Shown one piece after another: positions 3,592 through 48,376 of a DNA stretch of 48,376 nt. Both the position numbers and the translations under genes were made by a program. The stretch comes from a virus. How positions within the stretch are numbered: position 1 is the stretch's first letter; every line of letters starts with the position of its first letter. The DNA lies in IMG/VR virus record IMGVR_UViG_3300013131_000068, positions 1-48,376 of that record. One strand, 5' to 3'. The notes below the pieces were generated by a model that saw only the letters and a program-made list of their open reading frames with translations, did not search any database and was not told the DNA's origin.

Positions 3592-3900
3592 TTACCACTT
3601 TACCTTATCGGCCCAATACGCAGCAGACATTTTGCCCTTTGCAATATTCTTTGCATGACGAGCTTTAAACGACTTACGTTTCGCTTTCATACGAGCTGAC
3701 TCACCTTCTTTTGGTGCACCAGCAGTCTCTGCGCCTTGTTCACCAAAGCGAATTGTCTTTACTTGATCGCCGTCCTTGGCGACCACGATGTGACTCTTTT
3801 CTGGATGAGAAGGTGTTGCCTTTGGCTTATTGAAACCCTGGACACCGGCTCTTACGAGGCGAGGATCTTTCTCTTCTATGAACTCTCTGAAACCCTGCAT
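3592..3900 (-). CDS. Small basic protein with T4 internal-protein-type leader
   Basis: A 102-residue protein. The start at MQGFREFIEE is chosen because GGAGGATAAG precedes it; longer in-frame starts have none. The leader ends in Ile8-Glu9-Glu10, the position and pattern of the cleaved capsid-targeting leader of T4 internal proteins. The body has a folded-looking stretch (SHIVVAKDGDQVKTIRFGEQG). The very basic C-terminus (RMKAKRKSFKARHAKNIAKG, then Ala-Ala-Tyr-Trp-Ala-Asp) is common in marine T4-like phages. A packaged DNA-associated role is inferred from the leader and the basic charge. Confidence 0.72.
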   Translation of the reverse strand: MQGFREFIEEKDPRLVRAGVQGFNKPKATPSHPEKSHIVVAKDGDQVKTIRFGEQGAETAGAPKEGESARMKAKRKSFKARHAKNIAKGKMSAAYWADKVKW

Positions 3901-3901
3901 C

Positions 3902-4492
3902 TTATCCTCCGAACTCGTGGCCAGCAACACGACGCATCTGCTTGTTGAACTCTTGTTGTGATGGCTTTTCTTTGTAAAGCTTGATCGAGATTTCTGGGCG
4001 TTCTTTACCTTTAATACGCCAGTTATAACCCTTCTCTTTATGCTCGGCTGAAGTAGTTTTTACAACACGACGTTTGTAGCCAGCTTCCCATGATTCAGCT
4101 TCGTCAAGATCAACTTCTTCAGTCTTGTTGTACTTCAAAGCATGAGCAGCTTTCACTTCGCGATCAGCTACCTTATCCATTGCTTTACCGGCATACTTCC
4201 AACGTTTATCAGCTTTAGCTTTGTTTTTGTCTTGAAGCGCGGCTGATGCATAGTCTCTTAGCTTTTCAGTTGATACCTCGTCGATCTGCTCGACTTCTTC
4301 TTGAGCGCTTCTAATTGCTTCTTTTGAAGGATACCCTTTATCTCCAGGTTTCGCGGGTGTCTCTCCACGTTTTCTCTTCGCGTGAATGTTAGTCCATAGG
4401 CCGTTGCCTTCTGTAACTTCGGTTGAACACTCATTACAGCAATTAGGGGTACCACAATTTGGATGTTCAAGGAATAGCTTAAATGATTTCAT
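3902..4492 (-). CDS. Modular basic protein with leader-like start and two LDE/IDE sites
   Basis: A 196-residue protein starting MKSFKLFLEH, like the capsid leaders of neighbouring genes but with His instead of Glu at position 10. A cysteine cluster (Cys13, 18, 19, 22 in NCGTPNCCNEC) could bind a metal. A GLWTNIHAKRKRGETP stretch follows. Ile-Asp-Glu72 and Leu-Asp-Glu131 resemble gp21 protease sites and separate three modules; module 2 begins VSTEKLRDYASAALQD, a repeat also found in the gene at 47638-48376. It has a basic C-terminal part. The stop overlaps the ribosome site of the next gene. Function unknown; packaging is inferred. Confidence 0.7.
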   Translation of the reverse strand: MKSFKLFLEHPNCGTPNCCNECSTEVTEGNGLWTNIHAKRKRGETPAKPGDKGYPSKEAIRSAQEEVEQIDEVSTEKLRDYASAALQDKNKAKADKRWKYAGKAMDKVADREVKAAHALKYNKTEEVDLDEAESWEAGYKRRVVKTTSAEHKEKGYNWRIKGKERPEISIKLYKEKPSQQEFNKQMRRVAGHEFGG

Positions 4493-4797
4493 AACTTACT
4501 CTTTTCTGCTTTGTGCGCCTGAGCTGCTTCCATTGAGTCAAACTCTTTGTGGTATGAACGATCGGCGTTATGTACTGCGTATGTTGCTTTCTTTGGAAAC
4601 TTGTTGTAGACTTTAGTTACGCGAAGATCTGAAGCTTCTTCGAGGCGGCGAGCTTCTTCTGCCTCCAGCATACGAACCATTTGTGTCTGACGCATGTGGT
4701 GTGCTTCGTTTACACCGCGAGATAGATTGCGCTGACGGCGATGAAAGTTAATCGCTTCAGAGAGTTCTTTATCTAATAGTTGTGTTACTTCTGTCAT
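4489..4797 (-). CDS. Conserved small helical phage protein
   Basis: A 102-residue protein with a charged, helical N-terminal two thirds (LLDKELSEAINFHRRQRNLS) and several Leu-x-Glu-Ala stretches (LSEA, LEEA), followed by a short sandwich-like end (YAVHNADRSYHKEFDSMEAA). Function not recognised. It starts 11 bases after the stop of the 86-residue leader protein and overlaps the next gene by four bases (ATGA), so it belongs to the same run of putative internal proteins. The LSEA and LEEA stretches fit the putative protease consensus, but such short motifs also occur by chance. Confidence 0.65.
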   Translation of the reverse strand: MTEVTQLLDKELSEAINFHRRQRNLSRGVNEAHHMRQTQMVRMLEAEEARRLEEASDLRVTKVYNKFPKKATYAVHNADRSYHKEFDSMEAAQAHKAEKSKL

Positions 4798-5078: not shown

Positions 5079-8000
5079 TTAGTACTTAATGACTGGATTC
5101 GGCGTTGAGAAATTCTTCTTACGCATGATGGTCTTTGCTACGATGTCGATCTCATCATTCTTTTCGTCGTACTTGATTACGACTGGCATGTTGAGGTCTG
5201 ACTGAAGATCTTTTACTACAAGTTCAGCACCGGCTTTTCCCTTAAGAGGGTTGCCGTTCTTTGCATAGATCTTTTTGATCAAATCTGCAAGTTCTTTAAG
5301 CTTAATCTTTGGTGAGTTGCGATCATCATTCATACGCTCACCAAAGTGTTTAGTGAACTCAAAGTCAATCTTGAATTTCTCGAACATACGATCGACAAAC
5401 TTTTCGAAGTCTTTCATCTTTGATGCGGTGATTTCAACATCAGCTTCTTCTGACAAAGAACCTTCAACTTCCATCAGAGCTTCAAAGGCCTCGTTGATGC
5501 CATCAGTGATCTTTGGCTTCTTTGGTGTACCCTTTTCGCCGGGAGTTGCGGCTTTATAATTCTGAACAAGAGTATCTGTATTTTCAAATCCAGCGCCATA
5601 TGCTTCATAGTAAGCTCTAAAGTGCTTCATCTTTTTTGCACGCTTAAGAGCTGCATCGATGTGCTTTTCGACATGATCTTCATCGCCATCGTTTGATTCT
5701 GGCGGAATCACTGGAGTAGGAATAGCCTGTTCAAATGCTACACCTTTACGGGTGTGCTTCTTTTCGCCGGAATATTTTTTAAGTAATTTTTTCGTATCAG
5801 CAGGGTCGCCAATTGTCTCGTCTGGGGCCGCGTATTTAAAATCAAACTCATCTACATCACCATCGAGATCTGTATCAATGTGTTTAACATTATCTTTGTA
5901 CTGATGTTTGAATGGAACACCGATACCAAGGTGATGCTTCACCGACATCTTATCTTCTTTTACGGTCTTAGCCGACGCTATCCAATCCTTAGCAGCTGGG
6001 TTTGTTGGAAGAACCTTTGCCCACGTGCTGATCTTACGATACACGCCAGTGACTGCACCTTCGAAGTTAGATCCTTCGGAGTTGTCGATGATATACATGC
6101 GGTTGCCGAAGAAGTTCTGGAACTTACCAAGGTTCTTCTGTACACCGTTCCACATCGTCTCGACTTCTGAGTCTGGAAGCGAGCGAGCGCGCAGACGGTT
6201 ACGAGTCTTTGCGGTGGCGAGGTCGGTGTTAACAAAGATCATTGCAACTTCGTAGCCAAGCTTCTTTAGTTTCTCAGCTTGCTTCTCGATCTTGTCGTAG
6301 TCTTTACCGGTTCCGTCGATTACGAGACCAAGACGACCATTCAGTGCAAGATCTTGCTTCTTCGCCGTAAGAGCTTTTGCTTCACCACGAATCTCTTGAC
6401 CCTTTGCAGAGTAGATGTCTTCTGGGGTTGCCTTAAGTCCTGCCTTTGCAAGTGCTCTTTCGAAGATATCGTCAGAGTTGATCACTTTGAATCCGAGTGC
6501 AGTCAATGCGGTCTTACCTACGATGAACGACTTACCGGATCCTGGGCCACCTGCAAGGAATACTGCCTTGAAGATTGATGGGTCGTTAACACCTTCATCA
6601 AGTAATGTTTCAAACAAATCGTCTGCAGATTCTTTAATGCCGTGCATGTCACGGTACTTACTTGCCAACTGACGACCAGTCAGGCCAATATCGTAAGATT
6701 TTGCGATATCGAAAGCGTATGAGTTTAGGCTTGAACGATTGCCCTTTGATTTGTAGAGTCTATCAAGTGCTTCAAGCGCTCTCTTCATTATCACTTCAGT
6801 TGGTGATGGAAAGTGCTTATCTTCCTTCAGACCTTTTGCAAGGTCTGCGTCTGCAGTTGTGCGAGTCTTACCGCCAGTGATGAACGAATTGACACGTGCA
6901 TATCCCCACTGTTGCGGAGTAGTTCCTGGACGATGACCAGTTCTCCACGCAGCAACACCACGGTCAAATACTTTCTTCAGAGTGCCGTACGAGATGCCAG
7001 ACTTCTCGGCTTTTTTCTTAAGACCTTCCATTGCCTTTGCTTCGTCGAGATTAATTGAGTTATTGATATCTTCTGCAATCATAATCATTTCGAGAAGATC
7101 TGCATCATTCTCTACTTCGATTTCTTCTTGACGAACAATATGGCGGAATGCACGGAAACGGCGATCATATTTAAGCGATCCATCTCCATTATACATCATG
7201 TGATAACGGCGAGTATGGACAGATGGCTTCGTCTTAGCAGTAGCATCTCCAGGTGCAGGCTTATATGCAGCTGGATTATCGTCGTCCATCTTTGCATGTT
7301 TATTGAAGTGAGCTTTACGCTTTGTTGCAGTCGACTTACTTAGACCTGCATAGTAGTCTTCATCAAGGAAAGACTCGAACATCTGATCGATATCCTCTTT
7401 CTGCTGGTGCAGCGAAGCAACTCTTTGTAGTTCAGCCTTGCGTACCTTTGGAAGAAGTCGAGCAGCGATCTTCGCAATTGCGCCTTTTCTCTTCTCGACT
7501 TTTTGATCGATCATGATCTTTTCTGAAGGAGAAAGGTCTGCGTAATTCGCGCCTCGCTCACCTGCTACTCTTTTACGGATAAGTTCAATTGCTTTCTTAC
7601 GTGCTCTCACTGCAAGCTTTTGATTCGAAGCAATCCGATTCTTTAATCTCTCACGAGCCGCTTCCATCTTGCGCTCGTACTTTCTCATTACGAGAGCGCG
7701 CTTTCTACGCTGGGCATATGAGAGAACATATTCGTCAAGCTCAACATCTTCTGATAGTTTCATACCAGCTCTTACCATATCGTAGATGTCTTGAGCATGT
7801 GATTGAAGCTTCTTTGGAAGGCCGGATTTAAACTTTTCTTCTTCACCCTTCGAAGCGGCATCTCTCATCTTCGATGCCGACATGCCTTCAACACCATCAG
7901 CATCAGGATCTCTTTCACCTGCAGAAACAACGGCGATTGATTTCATCGTGTAGTCTTTACCGTTGTACTTGTTAAGAAGAGTTTCAAACTCTTGTACGCG

Positions 8001-8369
8001 ATCTTGTCCAACCACAAGCGTAACATCATCATACTTCGACTGAAGTTGTTTCATGAGGTCAATGATAGTTTTTGCAGGTGAAGACTGAATGATACTGCCA
8101 AATGCTTCTTTGGCAATCATGACTTTATCAGAATATGAAAGTGGATTCTTTTTTGCGTCTTGTGACTGGCTCAAGTAAATTTCGGCTTTGCCACCGATTT
8201 TACGAGCAACGTCTTGAACCTTTTTCACTAGCTTTTCATGACCAATCGTAGGAGGGTTCATTCTTCCCCAAGAGATAACGACTTTTCTCGATGAAGCTTC
8301 CTTAAGAACTGGATTTACTTCAATAACGTTCTTGTTAAGCTTCTCGTCCTTTTTAGACTTCTTTTCCAT
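5079..8369 (-). CDS. 1096-residue modular late protein: nucleotidyltransferase-like, basic, P-loop kinase-like and C-terminal modules
   Basis: Residues about 28-205 look like a nucleotidyltransferase (GRMNPPTIGH with the HxGH-type end, then MSASKMR). Residues 214-337 are extremely Arg/Lys-rich. 338-443 is a second basic module. 444-592 contains a conserved GISYGTLKKVFDRGVAAW segment. About 600-790 is a P-loop kinase-like domain (AGGPGSGKS, Lys613; later LVIDGTG), similar in style to zeta-toxin/polynucleotide kinases. An EF-hand-like DTDLDGDVDEF loop is at 832-842, and the C-terminal module has KHFGERMNDDR. Leu/Ile-x-Glu sites at 24, 213, 337, 443, 592 and 960 fall at the module borders, suggesting gp21 processing. 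The ATG has GGAGAATCTT upstream and follows a late promoter at 8427-8434. Activities are inferred. Confidence 0.85.
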   Translation of the reverse strand: MEKKSKKDEKLNKNVIEVNPVLKEASSRKVVISWGRMNPPTIGHEKLVKKVQDVARKIGGKAEIYLSQSQDAKKNPLSYSDKVMIAKEAFGSIIQSSPAKTIIDLMKQLQSKYDDVTLVVGQDRVQEFETLLNKYNGKDYTMKSIAVVSAGERDPDADGVEGMSASKMRDAASKGEEEKFKSGLPKKLQSHAQDIYDMVRAGMKLSEDVELDEYVLSYAQRRKRALVMRKYERKMEAARERLKNRIASNQKLAVRARKKAIELIRKRVAGERGANYADLSPSEKIMIDQKVEKRKGAIAKIAARLLPKVRKAELQRVASLHQQKEDIDQMFESFLDEDYYAGLSKSTATKRKAHFNKHAKMDDDNPAAYKPAPGDATAKTKPSVHTRRYHMMYNGDGSLKYDRRFRAFRHIVRQEEIEVENDADLLEMIMIAEDINNSINLDEAKAMEGLKKKAEKSGISYGTLKKVFDRGVAAWRTGHRPGTTPQQWGYARVNSFITGGKTRTTADADLAKGLKEDKHFPSPTEVIMKRALEALDRLYKSKGNRSSLNSYAFDIAKSYDIGLTGRQLASKYRDMHGIKESADDLFETLLDEGVNDPSIFKAVFLAGGPGSGKSFIVGKTALTALGFKVINSDDIFERALAKAGLKATPEDIYSAKGQEIRGEAKALTAKKQDLALNGRLGLVIDGTGKDYDKIEKQAEKLKKLGYEVAMIFVNTDLATAKTRNRLRARSLPDSEVETMWNGVQKNLGKFQNFFGNRMYIIDNSEGSNFEGAVTGVYRKISTWAKVLPTNPAAKDWIASAKTVKEDKMSVKHHLGIGVPFKHQYKDNVKHIDTDLDGDVDEFDFKYAAPDETIGDPADTKKLLKKYSGEKKHTRKGVAFEQAIPTPVIPPESNDGDEDHVEKHIDAALKRAKKMKHFRAYYEAYGAGFENTDTLVQNYKAATPGEKGTPKKPKITDGINEAFEALMEVEGSLSEEADVEITASKMKDFEKFVDRMFEKFKIDFEFTKHFGERMNDDRNSPKIKLKELADLIKKIYAKNGNPLKGKAGAELVVKDLQSDLNMPVVIKYDEKNDEIDIVAKTIMRKKNFSTPNPVIKY

Positions 8370-44404: not shown

Positions 44405-45688
44405 TTAGAGGATGTTGGTAACGCGAACGCGACGGTAGTACTTGTTCGAGTTAGCGGTGAGACCGGAGTCACCATCGCCGTCAACCCACTTGGTCGAACC
44501 TTTTGCGAATGGGTTAGCAACCATGCCGTAGCGGGTTTTGAAGCCGATTTTAGCCTGGAAGCTGTTCTCGCCAACTGCACGAACCATCTGTAGTGGGACG
44601 TATGGGCAGTAGAACATACCTGCGTCGAAAGGTGAAGAGCCCTTGTAACCAACGACCATGTAGTTTGCACCAGCATATGGGTCGATGTATACACGGAAGC
44701 GACCATTGAGAACACCTGCGAAGGTATTGCCAGTGTCGTCTACGTTAAGAGCGTTGCTGTTAAGTGCTGGGGTATAGTCAAGGATACCAGCCATCTGAAG
44801 AGCAGATGCAACATCTGACGAGCAGATGATGATGTTACCCTTACCACGACGGGTGTCTTTTGCAAGCTGGTTAGCTTCGCGCTCGATCTGGAACATAAGA
44901 CCCTTGAACTTCTCAACTGACCAGCGGCCATTTGCGTCAACGTCAAGGTCGAAGATACCAGCAGTTGCGGTACCAGTTTGTGCACCGGTGACTGCAGTGT
45001 TGTAGACTGTGCGAACAACTTCACGGTTGATTTCTGCAAGAAGCTCAGCCTGAAGCATATTTGCAAGCTCAGTCTCTGCGTCAAGGCCGTGAATTGCTTT
45101 CAAGTCCTGTGCAAGTTCACTGGTGTATTCTGCTTTAAGCGCACGGCTCTTAGCAGTAACCGAAACCTTCGAAATGTCGAATGACATTTGTGCGAAGTCA
45201 GTGCCAGCGCCGTCGCCAAGAGCTTCAGCAGCTGCGGTTGACATACCAGTACCGGTGTTTGCAGTATCTGCAGTACCAGTTGTACCAGCCATTGTGCCGG
45301 TGCCTGAGAAGTCGGTGTCAGCTTCGCCGTAGAAAGCTTCTGCTGTTGCAGCAGTGGTGTTTGCGTAGTTTGAACGCATTGCGAAGATCAAGCCGGTTGG
45401 GCCAGTCATTGGCTGAACGCCAGCAATATCGTATGCGATCAAGTTAGGCATTGCACGACGAACGAGGCTAATAAGCACTGGGTCGTAGTTTGCAGCAACA
45501 CCTGTGGCATTCACTGGTGCTTCTGTTAGGAAAGAACCGGAACCGTATGTCTGACCTTCCTTGATAGCGACTTCGGTGTTCTCGAGAAGCTGAGCGGTGA
45601 CAGCTTTACGATGCGCATCCTTGATCGATGGAAGAGCAGTGTGCTCAAGCACTGGGCCCCACTTCTTCAATAGTTCTTCGTTTCTCAT
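44405..45688 (-). CDS. 23: Major capsid protein gp23
   Basis: A 427-residue HK97-fold capsid protein (T4 521; marine forms are shorter). Recognisable: LISLVRRAMPNLIAYDIAGV and QPMTGPTGLIFAMRSNYANT near the N-terminus, KSRALKAEYTSELAQDLKAI in the middle, and IDPYAGANYMVVGYKGSSPF with YCPYVPLQMVRAV near the end. The prohead protease site is visible: GSFLTE/APVNA, Leu54-Thr-Glu56 before Ala57 (T4 cuts at Glu65). AGGAG ribosome site, late promoter at 45724-45731, strong terminator after. The codon use is the most biased in the window (abundant GCA/GCT Ala, GGT Gly), as expected for its high expression. Confidence 0.97.
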   Translation of the reverse strand: MRNEELLKKWGPVLEHTALPSIKDAHRKAVTAQLLENTEVAIKEGQTYGSGSFLTEAPVNATGVAANYDPVLISLVRRAMPNLIAYDIAGVQPMTGPTGLIFAMRSNYANTTAATAEAFYGEADTDFSGTGTMAGTTGTADTANTGTGMSTAAAEALGDGAGTDFAQMSFDISKVSVTAKSRALKAEYTSELAQDLKAIHGLDAETELANMLQAELLAEINREVVRTVYNTAVTGAQTGTATAGIFDLDVDANGRWSVEKFKGLMFQIEREANQLAKDTRRGKGNIIICSSDVASALQMAGILDYTPALNSNALNVDDTGNTFAGVLNGRFRVYIDPYAGANYMVVGYKGSSPFDAGMFYCPYVPLQMVRAVGENSFQAKIGFKTRYGMVANPFAKGSTKWVDGDGDSGLTANSNKYYRRVRVTNIL

Positions 45689-45735: not shown

Positions 45736-46653
45736 TTAAGATTTACTAAATTTGTTTAGCGATGCGACGTAAGCCGAAACCGAAGGATCGAGTACAGGAG
45801 TTTTTACTTCTTCTACTTCCTCTTCAAGGACTTCTGCTTGATCTTCTGCACGAACAACTTGCTCGGTGAAGTATGATTCTTTGATGGTTTCAAGCTTCTT
45901 TGCAAAGTCATCAACTGACTCATAAGAAACACCTTCTGCAAGAACCTTAAAGCGCTCTGCATCAGTAGCTACCATGCCTTCAGTGAAGTGTGCAAGTGCT
46001 GCATTCTTCTGAAGCTCTTCTTTTTCTGCACGCTCTGCAAGAAGCTCTTCGAATAGAGCATTGTACTTAGCGTTTGACTGAGCAACTTCTTCTTCCATTG
46101 CAGCAAGTGCTTCAAGCTCTTCGTCTGCAACTTCGATATTATGATCTTCAACAAGTGACTTAAGACCAGCGATGATCGACTCAGCTACTTCAACTTTGTA
46201 GCCAGACTCAAGAGCGACTTCGTTTTCTTTCATCCAGTTCTCAACTACGTAGTCAAGGTATGAATCAACTTTGTCGGTAAGGTCTTCTACAATCGCTTCA
46301 ACCTGCTCAGCAAGATCAGCTTCGAACTGCTCTTCAAGCTCTGCGCGGGCTGCTTCTACTTTCTCGTGAAGTGCTGCTTCAAAAATAGTAGTAGTCTTAG
46401 TCTTGAAGTCTTCGGAAAGATCTGCATCACCAAAGATAGCTTCGATCATTTCATGAAGACCGGCATTGTTGCTACCCTGTGGGGTCTTAACATTCTTTTC
46501 AATGTTGTCTGCTTGTGCAGTCGAGTCAGATTTGAAAGCATCTGCTTTGCGCTTTTTTACAGCGCCGCCAGCTGGTGTAACTGGATCGGCTGACATGGAG
46601 TCTTCGCCAGTTGCTTTTGCTTCTTCTAACCCTTTTTCTAGATTTACATCCAT
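45736..46653 (-). CDS. 22: Prohead core scaffold protein gp22
   Basis: A 305-residue, very acidic, Glu/Ala-rich coiled-coil protein directly before gp23, as T4 gp22 (269). MDVNLEKGLEEAKA carries a Leu9-Glu-Glu11/Ala site near the start, and SVSAYVASLNKFSKS ends the protein like other gp22 C-termini. It forms the inner scaffold and is cut to small peptides by gp21. AAAGGAG ribosome site, late promoter at 46692-46699. Confidence 0.88.
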   Translation of the reverse strand: MDVNLEKGLEEAKATGEDSMSADPVTPAGGAVKKRKADAFKSDSTAQADNIEKNVKTPQGSNNAGLHEMIEAIFGDADLSEDFKTKTTTIFEAALHEKVEAARAELEEQFEADLAEQVEAIVEDLTDKVDSYLDYVVENWMKENEVALESGYKVEVAESIIAGLKSLVEDHNIEVADEELEALAAMEEEVAQSNAKYNALFEELLAERAEKEELQKNAALAHFTEGMVATDAERFKVLAEGVSYESVDDFAKKLETIKESYFTEQVVRAEDQAEVLEEEVEEVKTPVLDPSVSAYVASLNKFSKS

Positions 46654-46719: not shown

Positions 46720-47379
46720 TTACATGCTCTTTAAGAATTTTTCGAACATCTTTAAAGCAGCGGCTTCATCGATCTGCTTCGATTTTTTTACTTCTTCTTC
46801 AATTTGATCAAATGTGTTTGCCACTGTCCATGAAGAAGCCGCAACGTCGTAGATCCATTCTACGCCTTCCATGATACCTTTTACAAAAGCATCTGGAGCT
46901 GAAGGATCTGCGACAATATCACCTGCCGTAGCAAGCATAAAGTCATTTTGTACTTCCATGATGCCCTTTTCATTTGGCTTCACAGATCCCATTCCACGGG
47001 AAGAAATTCCTAATTGCGCACCACTATCGATAAGTCCTTTTACGACATCACCCATAGGGGTTTTAGTAATTTTAGCTCTACCTACAACGTTCGAACCATC
47101 AGCTTTTAATTCTGTGAATAGGTGTGAAACTCTGTCGAGGTTAATAGTTGGTCCTTGTGGGTGACCAAGTTCACCAAAGGCGCGATTCTTCGATACATAG
47201 TTTTCATTGTAGCGATTCATTTCGCGCATTAAAACGTTTGATGGGTAAATACGACCATTACGGTTCTTAATATCACCCTGCATGATGATACCTTCGATGT
47301 AATAGTTCTTTTCACCCTTTTCGGTCGCTTCAGTAATATAATGAACTTCTTCGACAATATCTTTAATGAGTAAGGCCAT
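46720..47379 (-). CDS. 21: Prohead core protease gp21
   Basis: A 219-residue serine protease (T4 212). Catalytic-region landmarks: NRAFGELGHPQGP with His73 and AQLGISSRGMGSV with Ser126/127 and following Arg-Gly; GDIVADPSAPDAFV carries the conserved Asp. The N-terminus EVHYITE/ATEKG shows an Ile15-Thr-Glu17/Ala self-processing site. It cleaves gp23, gp22 and internal proteins after Leu/Ile-x-Glu during head maturation. AAGGAG ribosome site; late promoter in the end of the upstream gene. Confidence 0.95.
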   Translation of the reverse strand: MALLIKDIVEEVHYITEATEKGEKNYYIEGIIMQGDIKNRNGRIYPSNVLMREMNRYNENYVSKNRAFGELGHPQGPTINLDRVSHLFTELKADGSNVVGRAKITKTPMGDVVKGLIDSGAQLGISSRGMGSVKPNEKGIMEVQNDFMLATAGDIVADPSAPDAFVKGIMEGVEWIYDVAASSWTVANTFDQIEEEVKKSKQIDEAAALKMFEKFLKSM

Positions 47380-47396: not shown

Positions 47397-47645
47397 TTAT
47401 TTATAAGCCAATGGAGTAGCCCATACTGTTGTATTAGCCGAGAGTTTATCTGTTCGAAGTTTTTCCATAATCTCAACAAATCCTGCCGGAATTGTAATAG
47501 TACCAATTACTGTATCAGCAGAATCAGAATAAGTAACAAGAGCTTCTGTTGGTGCGTAAACACGCACCAACGTTGAGTTATGAACGGTATTCGCAGTCGA
47601 GATATTTACTTGCGTACCAGTCGGCTTGAGGATAATATCAACCAT
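47397..47645 (-). CDS. Small beta-rich structural protein upstream of gp21
   Basis: An 82-residue protein starting MVDIILKPTGTQVNISTANT, with VIGTITIPAGFVEIMEKLRT and TTVWATPLAYK. Alternating strands and no charge bias; a family seen beside head genes in cyanophage-like myoviruses, function unknown. The ATG overlaps the upstream gene by eight bases. Its final codons TAT AAA TAA are also the gp21 late promoter. Confidence 0.65.
   Translation of the reverse strand: MVDIILKPTGTQVNISTANTVHNSTLVRVYAPTEALVTYSDSADTVIGTITIPAGFVEIMEKLRTDKLSANTTVWATPLAYK
47398..47405 (-). promoter_or_regulatory. Late promoter TATAAATA of gp21, built from Tyr-Lys-stop codons
   Basis: Perfect late consensus coinciding with the last two codons and stop of the 82-residue gene; 19 bases before the gp21 ATG. 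Confidence 0.8.
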
Positions 47646-48376
47646 GCTGCACCGCTTCCTTTGCAAATGCTAGGATTTGATTAAATTCTTTTTTACTAGA
47701 TAACACTTGATCCTGCATTTTGGATTGATTAGCGCTATTAAGAAGTTTAGACAAGTCATTTAGTGCATCAACATCTTCACGACTAAGAGTTACTGAAGAA
47801 CCATCTTTGAGCTTCATCACACCGATCTTGAAAGCTTCATCAAGTTCGACTTCTTCTTTTGTAGCAAGAACCTTTGCTCTACCAGTCTGCTTAGCAAATG
47901 CTAGGTCACGACCAAACTTACGCTTACGATACTTATCAGAACCATCGTCACCTGATGGCTGATCCGCAAAAGCTTTCTGACGGTATGCGTCGAGCTTCTT
48001 ATCGGATACTTCGTCAAGCTCTACAGACTCTCTAGCAGGAACTTTTGCCTTACCACCAATGTCATATGCTTTCTTACCAGCAGTCTCAATACCTTTTTCA
48101 CGAGACTTCATTTTCTTGTACTGAGAAACGTTCTTATCCATATCCTTTGAATTGAACGGTTTCATCACCTCTGATCTACGCTCTTTATTATCAGCAGTAG
48201 CTTTACGGATATATGAACGAGCAAGGTCGCGTGAGATTTCATCGAGACCTTCAGCTTCTTCTTTAGTAAGACGATCAGTTGCCTTTTTTATGTTTCTAAG
48301 TCTGTCCATAGACTTAGAAAATGTCTTAGAACTTCCAGTGTGGCCGTATTCAGCTGCACGACTTGCTGCATCAGAA
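47638..48376 (-). CDS. 5'-truncated modular basic protein with repeated LDE-x-S modules
   Basis: The reading frame is open to the window edge, so the start is outside; at least 245 residues are seen (SDAASRAAEYG ... at the edge). From the first Met (48309) onward, Leu-Asp-Glu sites at 24, 100 and 158 separate modules; two modules begin ISRDLARSYIRKATAD and VSDKKLDAYRQKAFAD, the same repeat as in the gene at 3902-4492. The last module, after EEVELDEAF, is a small alpha/beta domain. Sites fit gp21 processing (Leu-x-Glu). Location next to gp21 suggests a core or internal head protein. Function unknown. Confidence 0.72.
   Translation of the reverse strand, partial: SDAASRAAEYGHTGSSKTFSKSMDRLRNIKKATDRLTKEEAEGLDEISRDLARSYIRKATADNKERRSEVMKPFNSKDMDKNVSQYKKMKSREKGIETAGKKAYDIGGKAKVPARESVELDEVSDKKLDAYRQKAFADQPSGDDGSDKYRKRKFGRDLAFAKQTGRAKVLATKEEVELDEAFKIGVMKLKDGSSVTLSREDVDALNDLSKLLNSANQSKMQDQVLSSKKEFNQILAFAKEAVQHG

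Follow-up and report, generated by a model that had tools for sequence, protein, structure and literature searches.

Chains of small basic proteins, joined by protease-site-like linkers, are apparently built into the forming head core by many aquatic relatives of phage T4

The window analyzed here (48,376 bases) covers an entire virus record, which represents a genome fragment. The genes for the major capsid protein gp23, the scaffold gp22, and the prohead protease gp21 are followed, toward the high-numbered end, by a small conserved gene and by the 3' part of a gene that encodes a chain of small basic modules, hereafter termed beads (Table 1); the portal gene gp20 falls outside the window. 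The location of this bead gene directly upstream of the 47397-47666 gene and gp21 is the same in the related loci L002, L003, and L006. The gene is open at position 48375, the contig end, and its copy count given here covers the beads seen only. A second bead gene (3902-4492) lies near the other end of the window, in the vicinity of two small genes and a fusion of nucleotidyltransferase, DUF5824, and zeta-like kinase domains (5079-8369). The fusion itself has inner EDVELDE and INLDEA sites and a VLKE/A motif close to its N-terminus, and thus may be a candidate gp21 substrate (here and below, a slash marks the position of a gp21-type cut, which is predicted in our sequences).

Table 1. Bead genes, predicted linker sites, and neighboring genes in the window
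Feature	Coordinates	Strand	Remarks
gp23 major capsid protein	44405..45688	(-)	FLTE/A in propeptide
gp22 scaffold (T4_CASP)	45736..46653	(-)	Window copy without bead
gp21 prohead protease (Peptidase_S77)	46720..47379	(-)	Own C-terminal part bears KQIDE/AAALKMF
Small conserved gene between bead gene and gp21	47397..47666	(-)	Overlaps end of bead gene
Bead-chain prohead-core gene (predicted), 3' part	47638..48376	(-)	245 codons seen, 5' end past contig
Partial bead (C-terminal part, cut by contig end; residues 4-40)	~48256..48366	(-)	Held-out profile 20.7 bits, i-E 9.7e-6
Linker site 1, KEEAEG-LDE/IS	48238..48246	(-)	
Bead 1, from predicted cut to next site	48010..48237	(-)	Held-out profile 44.9 bits
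Linker site 2, ARESVE-LDE/VS	48010..48018	(-)	
Bead 2	47836..48009	(-)	
Linker site 3, TKEEVE-LDE/AF	47836..47844	(-)	Precedes a segment outside the bead family
Conserved C-terminal domain of 47638 gene	47641..47835	(-)	Common to bead-free phiN3 gp65, E 2e-7; phrog_26626
Second bead gene	3902..4492	(-)	Starts MKSFKLFLEH, targeting-like
Bead of second gene	4100..4276	(-)	After QIDE/V, before DLDE/A
Neighbor gene	4489..4797	(-)	C-terminal 48 residues (4492-4635) form a small bead of another kind
Neighbor gene	3592..3930	(-)	Probable start near 3900; MQGFREFIEE, targeting-like, I-E-E at residues 8-10
1096-aa fusion: nucleotidyltransferase, DUF5824, zeta-like kinase	5079..8369	(-)	Inner SEDVELDE linker

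An earlier note on this sequence had quoted three segments of the two bead genes as copies of one module, and all three are present where it had placed them. The strict pattern in which it had summarized them, [LI]DE[VIL]Sx3Lx2Yx3A, holds for two of these segments (4238-4285 and 47971-48018, both on the minus strand), but not for the third, LDEISRDLARSYIRKATAD, which has no Leu at the spacing demanded by the pattern. In the window ORFs the pattern occurs twice, compared with a mean of 0.0 in 300 shuffles. A held-out profile was built from 227 beads of other records, which were reduced to 195 by removing those with at least 40% identity to a window copy and then thinned to 133. It identified four window copies at 44.9, 20.7, 15.5, and 14.0 bits (three full copies and one cut by the contig end), compared with a best score of 8.6 bits among 20 shuffles of all 359 window ORFs; the partial copy at the contig edge is an addition to the three quoted segments. 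The weakest copy is that of the 3902-4492 gene, with an i-E value of 0.0012 when only the 359 ORFs of the window are counted, and with E-values of 0.063 and 1.5 when the profile came from either of two smaller training sets and the database size was nominally set to 100,000. The search for the strict pattern that the earlier note had proposed revealed 173 occurrences in 120 ORFs of the fetched loci, including 39 ORFs with at least two. The note had held that the similarity would be coincidental if there were no further copies and no periodicity in homologues; hundreds of copies exist elsewhere. Thus, the repeated module is confirmed, and it is larger than had been described.

Three scans of IMG/VR returned 63, 80, and 80 loci, and our collection comprised 225 loci or records after dropping same-contig repeats. 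Linker peptides were among the search patterns in all three scans, therefore the linker counts reported below are inflated and should not be read as population frequencies. We identified 302 beads in 161 ORFs of this collection at an E-value of 1e-3 or better; 84 of these ORFs have a single bead, 37 have two, 21 have three, 15 have four, three have five, and one has six. A whole-record search in a 218-kb record revealed nine beads over two genes, seven of them in one gene. The bead sequence consists of KEEVEQ[LI]DELSKxTLGSYxKKA, a variable stretch, and RxxGIxxAxxKLTKEE, and the segment length is ~72 residues (interquartile range 62-89). In 266 segments, the core has a median charge of +8 and is positive in 93% of cases, and the nine-residue linker has a charge of -4; per 60 residues, the bead proteins carry +2.0, compared with -0.26 for 1,671 other ORFs. 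The AlphaFold model of bead 1 has two helices (mean pLDDT 72), for which a fold search found a single PDB match with an E-value of 5.9, i.e., no real match. No Pfam family reached its cut-off in seven bead-chain proteins or in ten single segments; a weak match of the RNase H1 N-terminal domain (E-values of 0.005 and 0.048) is below the cut-off. Four PHROG families (phrog_5709, phrog_22379, phrog_11470, and phrog_9737) match portions of bead-chain proteins, and thus the borders of these families may be artefacts of shared segments. A segment with an EF-hand-like loop, e.g., GNQHKLDKNKNGKLDAQDF, recurs in the bead chains of L012:9501-11633, L133, and L181, and it matches the Pfam EF-hand below the cut-off only.

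In a tblastn search against named phages, the window protein had no match, and one canonical bead as a query matched nine records, with neither S-CREM2 nor S-SZBM1 among them. The only locus matched in bacterial genomes, L261, belongs to a GTDB metagenome-assembled genome (MAG) contig labelled Thermoleophilia; this locus itself bears T4-like gp20, gp21, gp22, and gp23, and is a phage contig binned into the MAG.

The acidic linker EE[VA]Ex[LI]DE is separable from the basic bead and is also found between unrelated segments. We counted 206 occurrences of the pattern EE[VA]Ex?[LIV]DE among 133 representative bead proteins, a count biased upward by the use of linker peptides for fetching, compared with 0.0 in shuffles; of 17,697 ORFs in which no bead was scored, 54 have the pattern as well. 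Within the window, it is confined to the two bead genes and the 5079-8369 fusion. For instance, the 47638 gene has TKEEVELDE/AFKIG and the 3902-4492 gene has TEEVDLDE/AESWEAG, where unrelated segments follow the linker. In the collection, 339 unique segments other than Y-beads follow a linker, and they form 12 clusters of four or more members. The linkers separate a wide variety of unrelated segments rather than copies of a single peptide. One such segment, of 48 residues, closes the 4489-4797 gene, where it is preceded by RRLEE; in L007, L011, and L178 it is preceded by KEE-ELDE-type linkers. AlphaFold predicts a beta-beta-beta-alpha arrangement for it (mean pLDDT 86), without a Foldseek match at an E-value of 0.001 or better. 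In a second fold search, the best match (E. coli yaiA, Z 5.8, 48 aligned, rmsd 1.9) and several double-stranded-RNA-binding domains (Z ~2.3-3.6) were too weak to assign a function.

The beads have two genomic homes. Of the 135 bead-containing loci, 52 include gp21, and a bead gene ends at most 1.5 kb upstream of it in 47 of these; the second home is marked by a relative of the 5079-8369 fusion, which is present in 60 of the 135 loci. Near-identical contigs enter these counts separately (e.g., L014-L017; L135, L139, and L143; L148 and L151). Where the contig includes gp20, the bead gene is located between gp20 and gp21 (e.g., L002, L015, and L020). Near copies of one and the same bead occupy both homes in different phages: those of bead 2 are encoded upstream of gp21 in L002 and L008 and beside the nucleotidyltransferase gene in L007, L010, and L011/L012.

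Several phages have two consecutive bead genes, the first of which starts like T4 gp67 and in some cases shares its acidic stretch too. A profile of nine such N-termini, taken from bead genes of other phages and not from the window gene, matched T4 gp67 with an E-value of 8.4e-6 and a probability of 83. The prohead family phrog_1064 matched L002:1856-2299 and L126:9638-10978 (E-value of 1.4e-6 each), which again are neighboring bead genes rather than the window gene; a plain BLASTP comparison of L002 with T4 gp67 gave no match. In L099 and L126, beads are located inside the gp22 scaffold itself. Among the matches listed, the top named phage for gp21 is Sinorhizobium phage phiN3 (60.5%). Its gp65 gene has 135 codons and no bead. 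The product matches the L002 chain protein at both ends, with E-values of 4e-12 and 1e-6; in L002, which is closely related to the window, ~510 residues are inserted between the two matches. A search for beads in T4, phiN3, and Syn1 found none. Homology of this gene to T4 gp68 was considered and rejected: the bead-free phiN3 gp65 has no match to T4 gp68, and the two belong to different PHROGs. By their position and fusions, the bead genes are classified as prohead-core genes.

In T4, gp21 cuts after L/I-X-E (PMC9026906). The bead linker fits this rule, and such sites are located at domain borders. Each of the 20 large records encodes a Peptidase_S77, and beads are found in 15 of them; the records were selected among T4-like phages, and thus the association of beads with gp21 is not independent of descent. 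The N-termini of 44 capsid proteins from the fetched loci share one L-x-E column, with Leu in 42 and Glu in 43 of them, followed mostly by Ala or Thr. The fetched loci contain 116 distinct starts that fit M[KRQ][STRKNG][FYL]xx[FYLIV][ILVTMF]; Glu is found at residue 10 in 78 of them, at residue 9 in 31, and at residue 11 in 7; the T4 targeting sequence MKTYQEFIAE/A has its Glu at residue 10 as well. The strict targeting-like start is present in 23 of 126 bead representatives whose start is inside the locus, the others being gp67-like or of other kinds, and also in 83 of 2,327 other ORFs, including nucleotidyltransferase, kinase, and HAD proteins (functions read by eye). The product of the 3902-4492 gene has Glu9 rather than Glu10, and the start of the 47638 gene lies past the contig. 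MKSFxxFIxE-type starts were also observed on nucleotidyltransferase-like (GRFNPPT), P-loop kinase-like, HAD-like, and HMTHLED-family genes (L113, L109, L145, L185, L245, L132, and others). The genes with targeting-like starts provide a possible list of candidate head-packaged enzymes.

Relatives of the second home are found in published cyanophage virion proteomes, as given in the cited parts of these papers. In S-CREM2 virions, the ORF154 cytidylyltransferase and the ORF155, ORF156, and ORF160 products were detected by mass spectrometry (PMC10665884); as translated here, ORF154 starts with MKNFSSFLTE/A, and ORF160, with a net charge of +30, matches part of the P-TIM68 bead protein and has predicted cut sites at ENLEE and ISE. 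S-SM1 virions also contain the cytidylyltransferase (PMC3037559), and those of S-SZBM1 contain the cytidylyltransferase and the 457-aa protein of the next gene (PMC9146016). The S-CREM2 authors considered that such enzymes may ride in the capsid or may merely have co-purified, unseparated, with the virions (PMC10665884). The cited parts of the S-CREM2, S-SM1, and S-SZBM1 virion papers report no cuts between segments. By eye, Ala/Lys-rich stretches in L266:989-2362 (S-SZBM1_139), L066:7471-9519 (S-SKS1), and P-TIM68 gp159 resemble histone H1 tails; these cyanophage proteins either adjoin the cytidylyltransferase gene or carry beads, and S-SZBM1_139 was detected in virions (PMC9146016). Residues ~359-454 of P-TIM68 gp159 (DACYHKVK..VWPSAYASGALVKCR) are among stretches that drew 367 phage records, nearly all of cyanophages, in one search.

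In many aquatic relatives of T4, the core of the forming head apparently incorporates chains of small basic proteins, and the protease-site-like linkers suggest a polyprotein route of loading cargo into the virus particle. The arrangement proposed from the window alone, beads strung together and separated by gp21-type sites, is well supported by the chains in many genomes and their position in the core operon, and further by the fusions with gp67-type and gp22 proteins, the presence of Peptidase_S77 in all large records, and the basic charge. The accompanying comparison was with the gp22-derived peptides of T4; T4 gp67, the gp68 position, and the targeted internal proteins compare better than these peptides alone. 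We consider it probable that the two window genes encode bead-chain cargo proteins of a T4-type prohead core, which would be cut by gp21, partly retained, and ejected. In each chain, small domains, most of them basic, would be connected by acidic linkers, each with the predicted gp21 site [LI]-D-E at its end. It would enter the prohead by fusion to core proteins (of the gp67 type, the gene at the gp68 position, and sometimes gp22) or by a T4-like N-terminal targeting sequence. Cutting by gp21 after each [LI]-x-E would produce basic peptides of ~50-80 residues inside the head, at least some of which would stay with the DNA and enter the next cell. The sequences directly show the repeated chains and their linkers, where the genes sit, what they are fused to, the insertion seen by comparison with phiN3, the Glu10 of the targeting-like starts, and the basic charge; cleavage, release as internal peptides, retention, ejection, and any role of an individual bead are inferred. 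In a wider and more tentative proposal, which we hold to be somewhat less likely than not, aquatic T4-like phages would have a combinatorial cargo polyprotein, in which interchangeable mini-proteins, swapped at a common linker and attached to core proteins or to targeting-tagged genes, are cut by gp21 within the closed head and co-delivered with the DNA as a mixture of small host-acting or DNA-binding factors, and tagged enzymes (nucleotidyltransferases, kinases, and HAD proteins) would take the same route.

It is possible, if rather unlikely, that the chains are filler of the core, which provides prohead volume and charge balance. In this case gp21 would use the same sites to shred the chains, and the fragments would be lost before or during DNA packaging, so that the beads have no later role. 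Beads are indeed fused to exactly the core proteins concerned (gp67, the gene at the gp68 position, and gp22), and the charge alternates between acidic linkers and basic beads. The T4 head loses the majority of its gp22, gp67, and gp68 fragments, and therefore the retention of beads may not hold; the T4 fragments that stay amount to 139 copies for a gp67 fragment and 115 for a gp22 fragment in the table of the same source (PMC9026906). However, the variety of segments other than Y-beads, as well as the predicted well-folded beta-beta-beta-alpha segment, would be superfluous for filler, and the second bead locus is located away from the core genes and has cyanophage relatives that were found in virions.

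Less likely still, the linkers are left uncut and serve as acidic spacers or recombination seams for segment exchange, in which case the chain would work as one long core or internal protein. Of 499 unique alignment ends, 30.7% are located within 10 residues of a linker, compared with 14.6% expected by chance, an excess to which conserved linkers alone contribute by drawing alignment ends toward themselves. Moreover, the same codon is used in 72.8% of 1,158 linker codon pairs within a gene, compared with 59.2% expected from codon use, hence part of the sameness of linkers reflects shared DNA ancestry. Yet [LI]xE with Asp or Asn stays constant even where the remaining linker differs (ENLNE and MINE in Cr30), the capsid protein keeps its L-x-E, and the Glu10 of the T4 targeting sequence recurs in the targeting-like starts. 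Cutting and the exchange of segments at seams are mutually compatible, and under the bead-chain cargo reading the linkers may also serve as exchange seams. A chance similarity among acidic, helical phage proteins has practically no probability left: the motif is short and the 3902-4492 copy is weak alone, but the held-out profile, the shuffles, and the hundreds of copies in other genomes already refute it.

If the bead-chain cargo reading is true, it assigns a function class and an in-head location to many unannotated genes of aquatic T4-like phages, describes a viral polyprotein that has a structural scaffold as its base and is processed by the maturation protease, and offers a readable code (a targeting start plus [LI]DE linkers) by which head cargo could be predicted from genome sequences. 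Culturable isolates with beads allow a direct test; among them are Synechococcus phage BUCT-ZZ01 (host PCC 7942), whose gp67-type protein UTS52006 has a bead, Caulobacter phage Cr30, whose gp064 has four, and P-TIM68. We found no description of such bead chains in the open-licence literature, the scope of our search. Several known systems are similar in part. The T4 proteins IPI, IPII, IPIII, and Alt share the short N-terminal MK[ST][FY]xxF[IL]xE, the gp21-type site, and, as small basic proteins, the general character of the beads (PMC9026906), and in IPII and IPIII the Glu is at residue 10, as in most targeting-like starts described here. However, the T4 internal proteins have one protein per gene and one N-terminal cut, whereas the bead genes encode several unrelated small domains with a site between each. 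The T4 core proteins gp67, gp68, and gp22 share with the bead genes the position between gp20 and gp23, the gp67-type N-terminus with its acidic stretch, and the gp22 scaffold domain; gp21 cuts them into pieces, as is predicted from the sites for the chains. In contrast, T4 has no beads, and its gp68 shows no similarity to the gene at the corresponding position. The phiN3 gp65 protein (phrog_26626) is homologous to the L002 chain protein at both ends and to the window gene at the C-terminus, but it is only 135 aa long and bead-free. Polyvalent proteins of phages and conjugative elements are likewise packaged multi-domain polypeptides that have been compared with polyproteins; they differ in having large enzyme domains and often their own peptidase (PMC5512222), whereas the beads are very small and would be released by a separate gp21. 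The giant phages SPN3US and phiKZ have a prohead protease of a related kind, which cuts after A-X-E in SPN3US, and long propeptides that are cut several times; these repeated cuts remove propeptides, and the cited parts of the papers describe no bead-linker chain (PMC10052503, PMC5694885). The core proteins, the targeting sequence, and the gp21 sites are of kinds already known; it is their serial, mixed, and exchangeable form for which we found no precedent in the literature searched.
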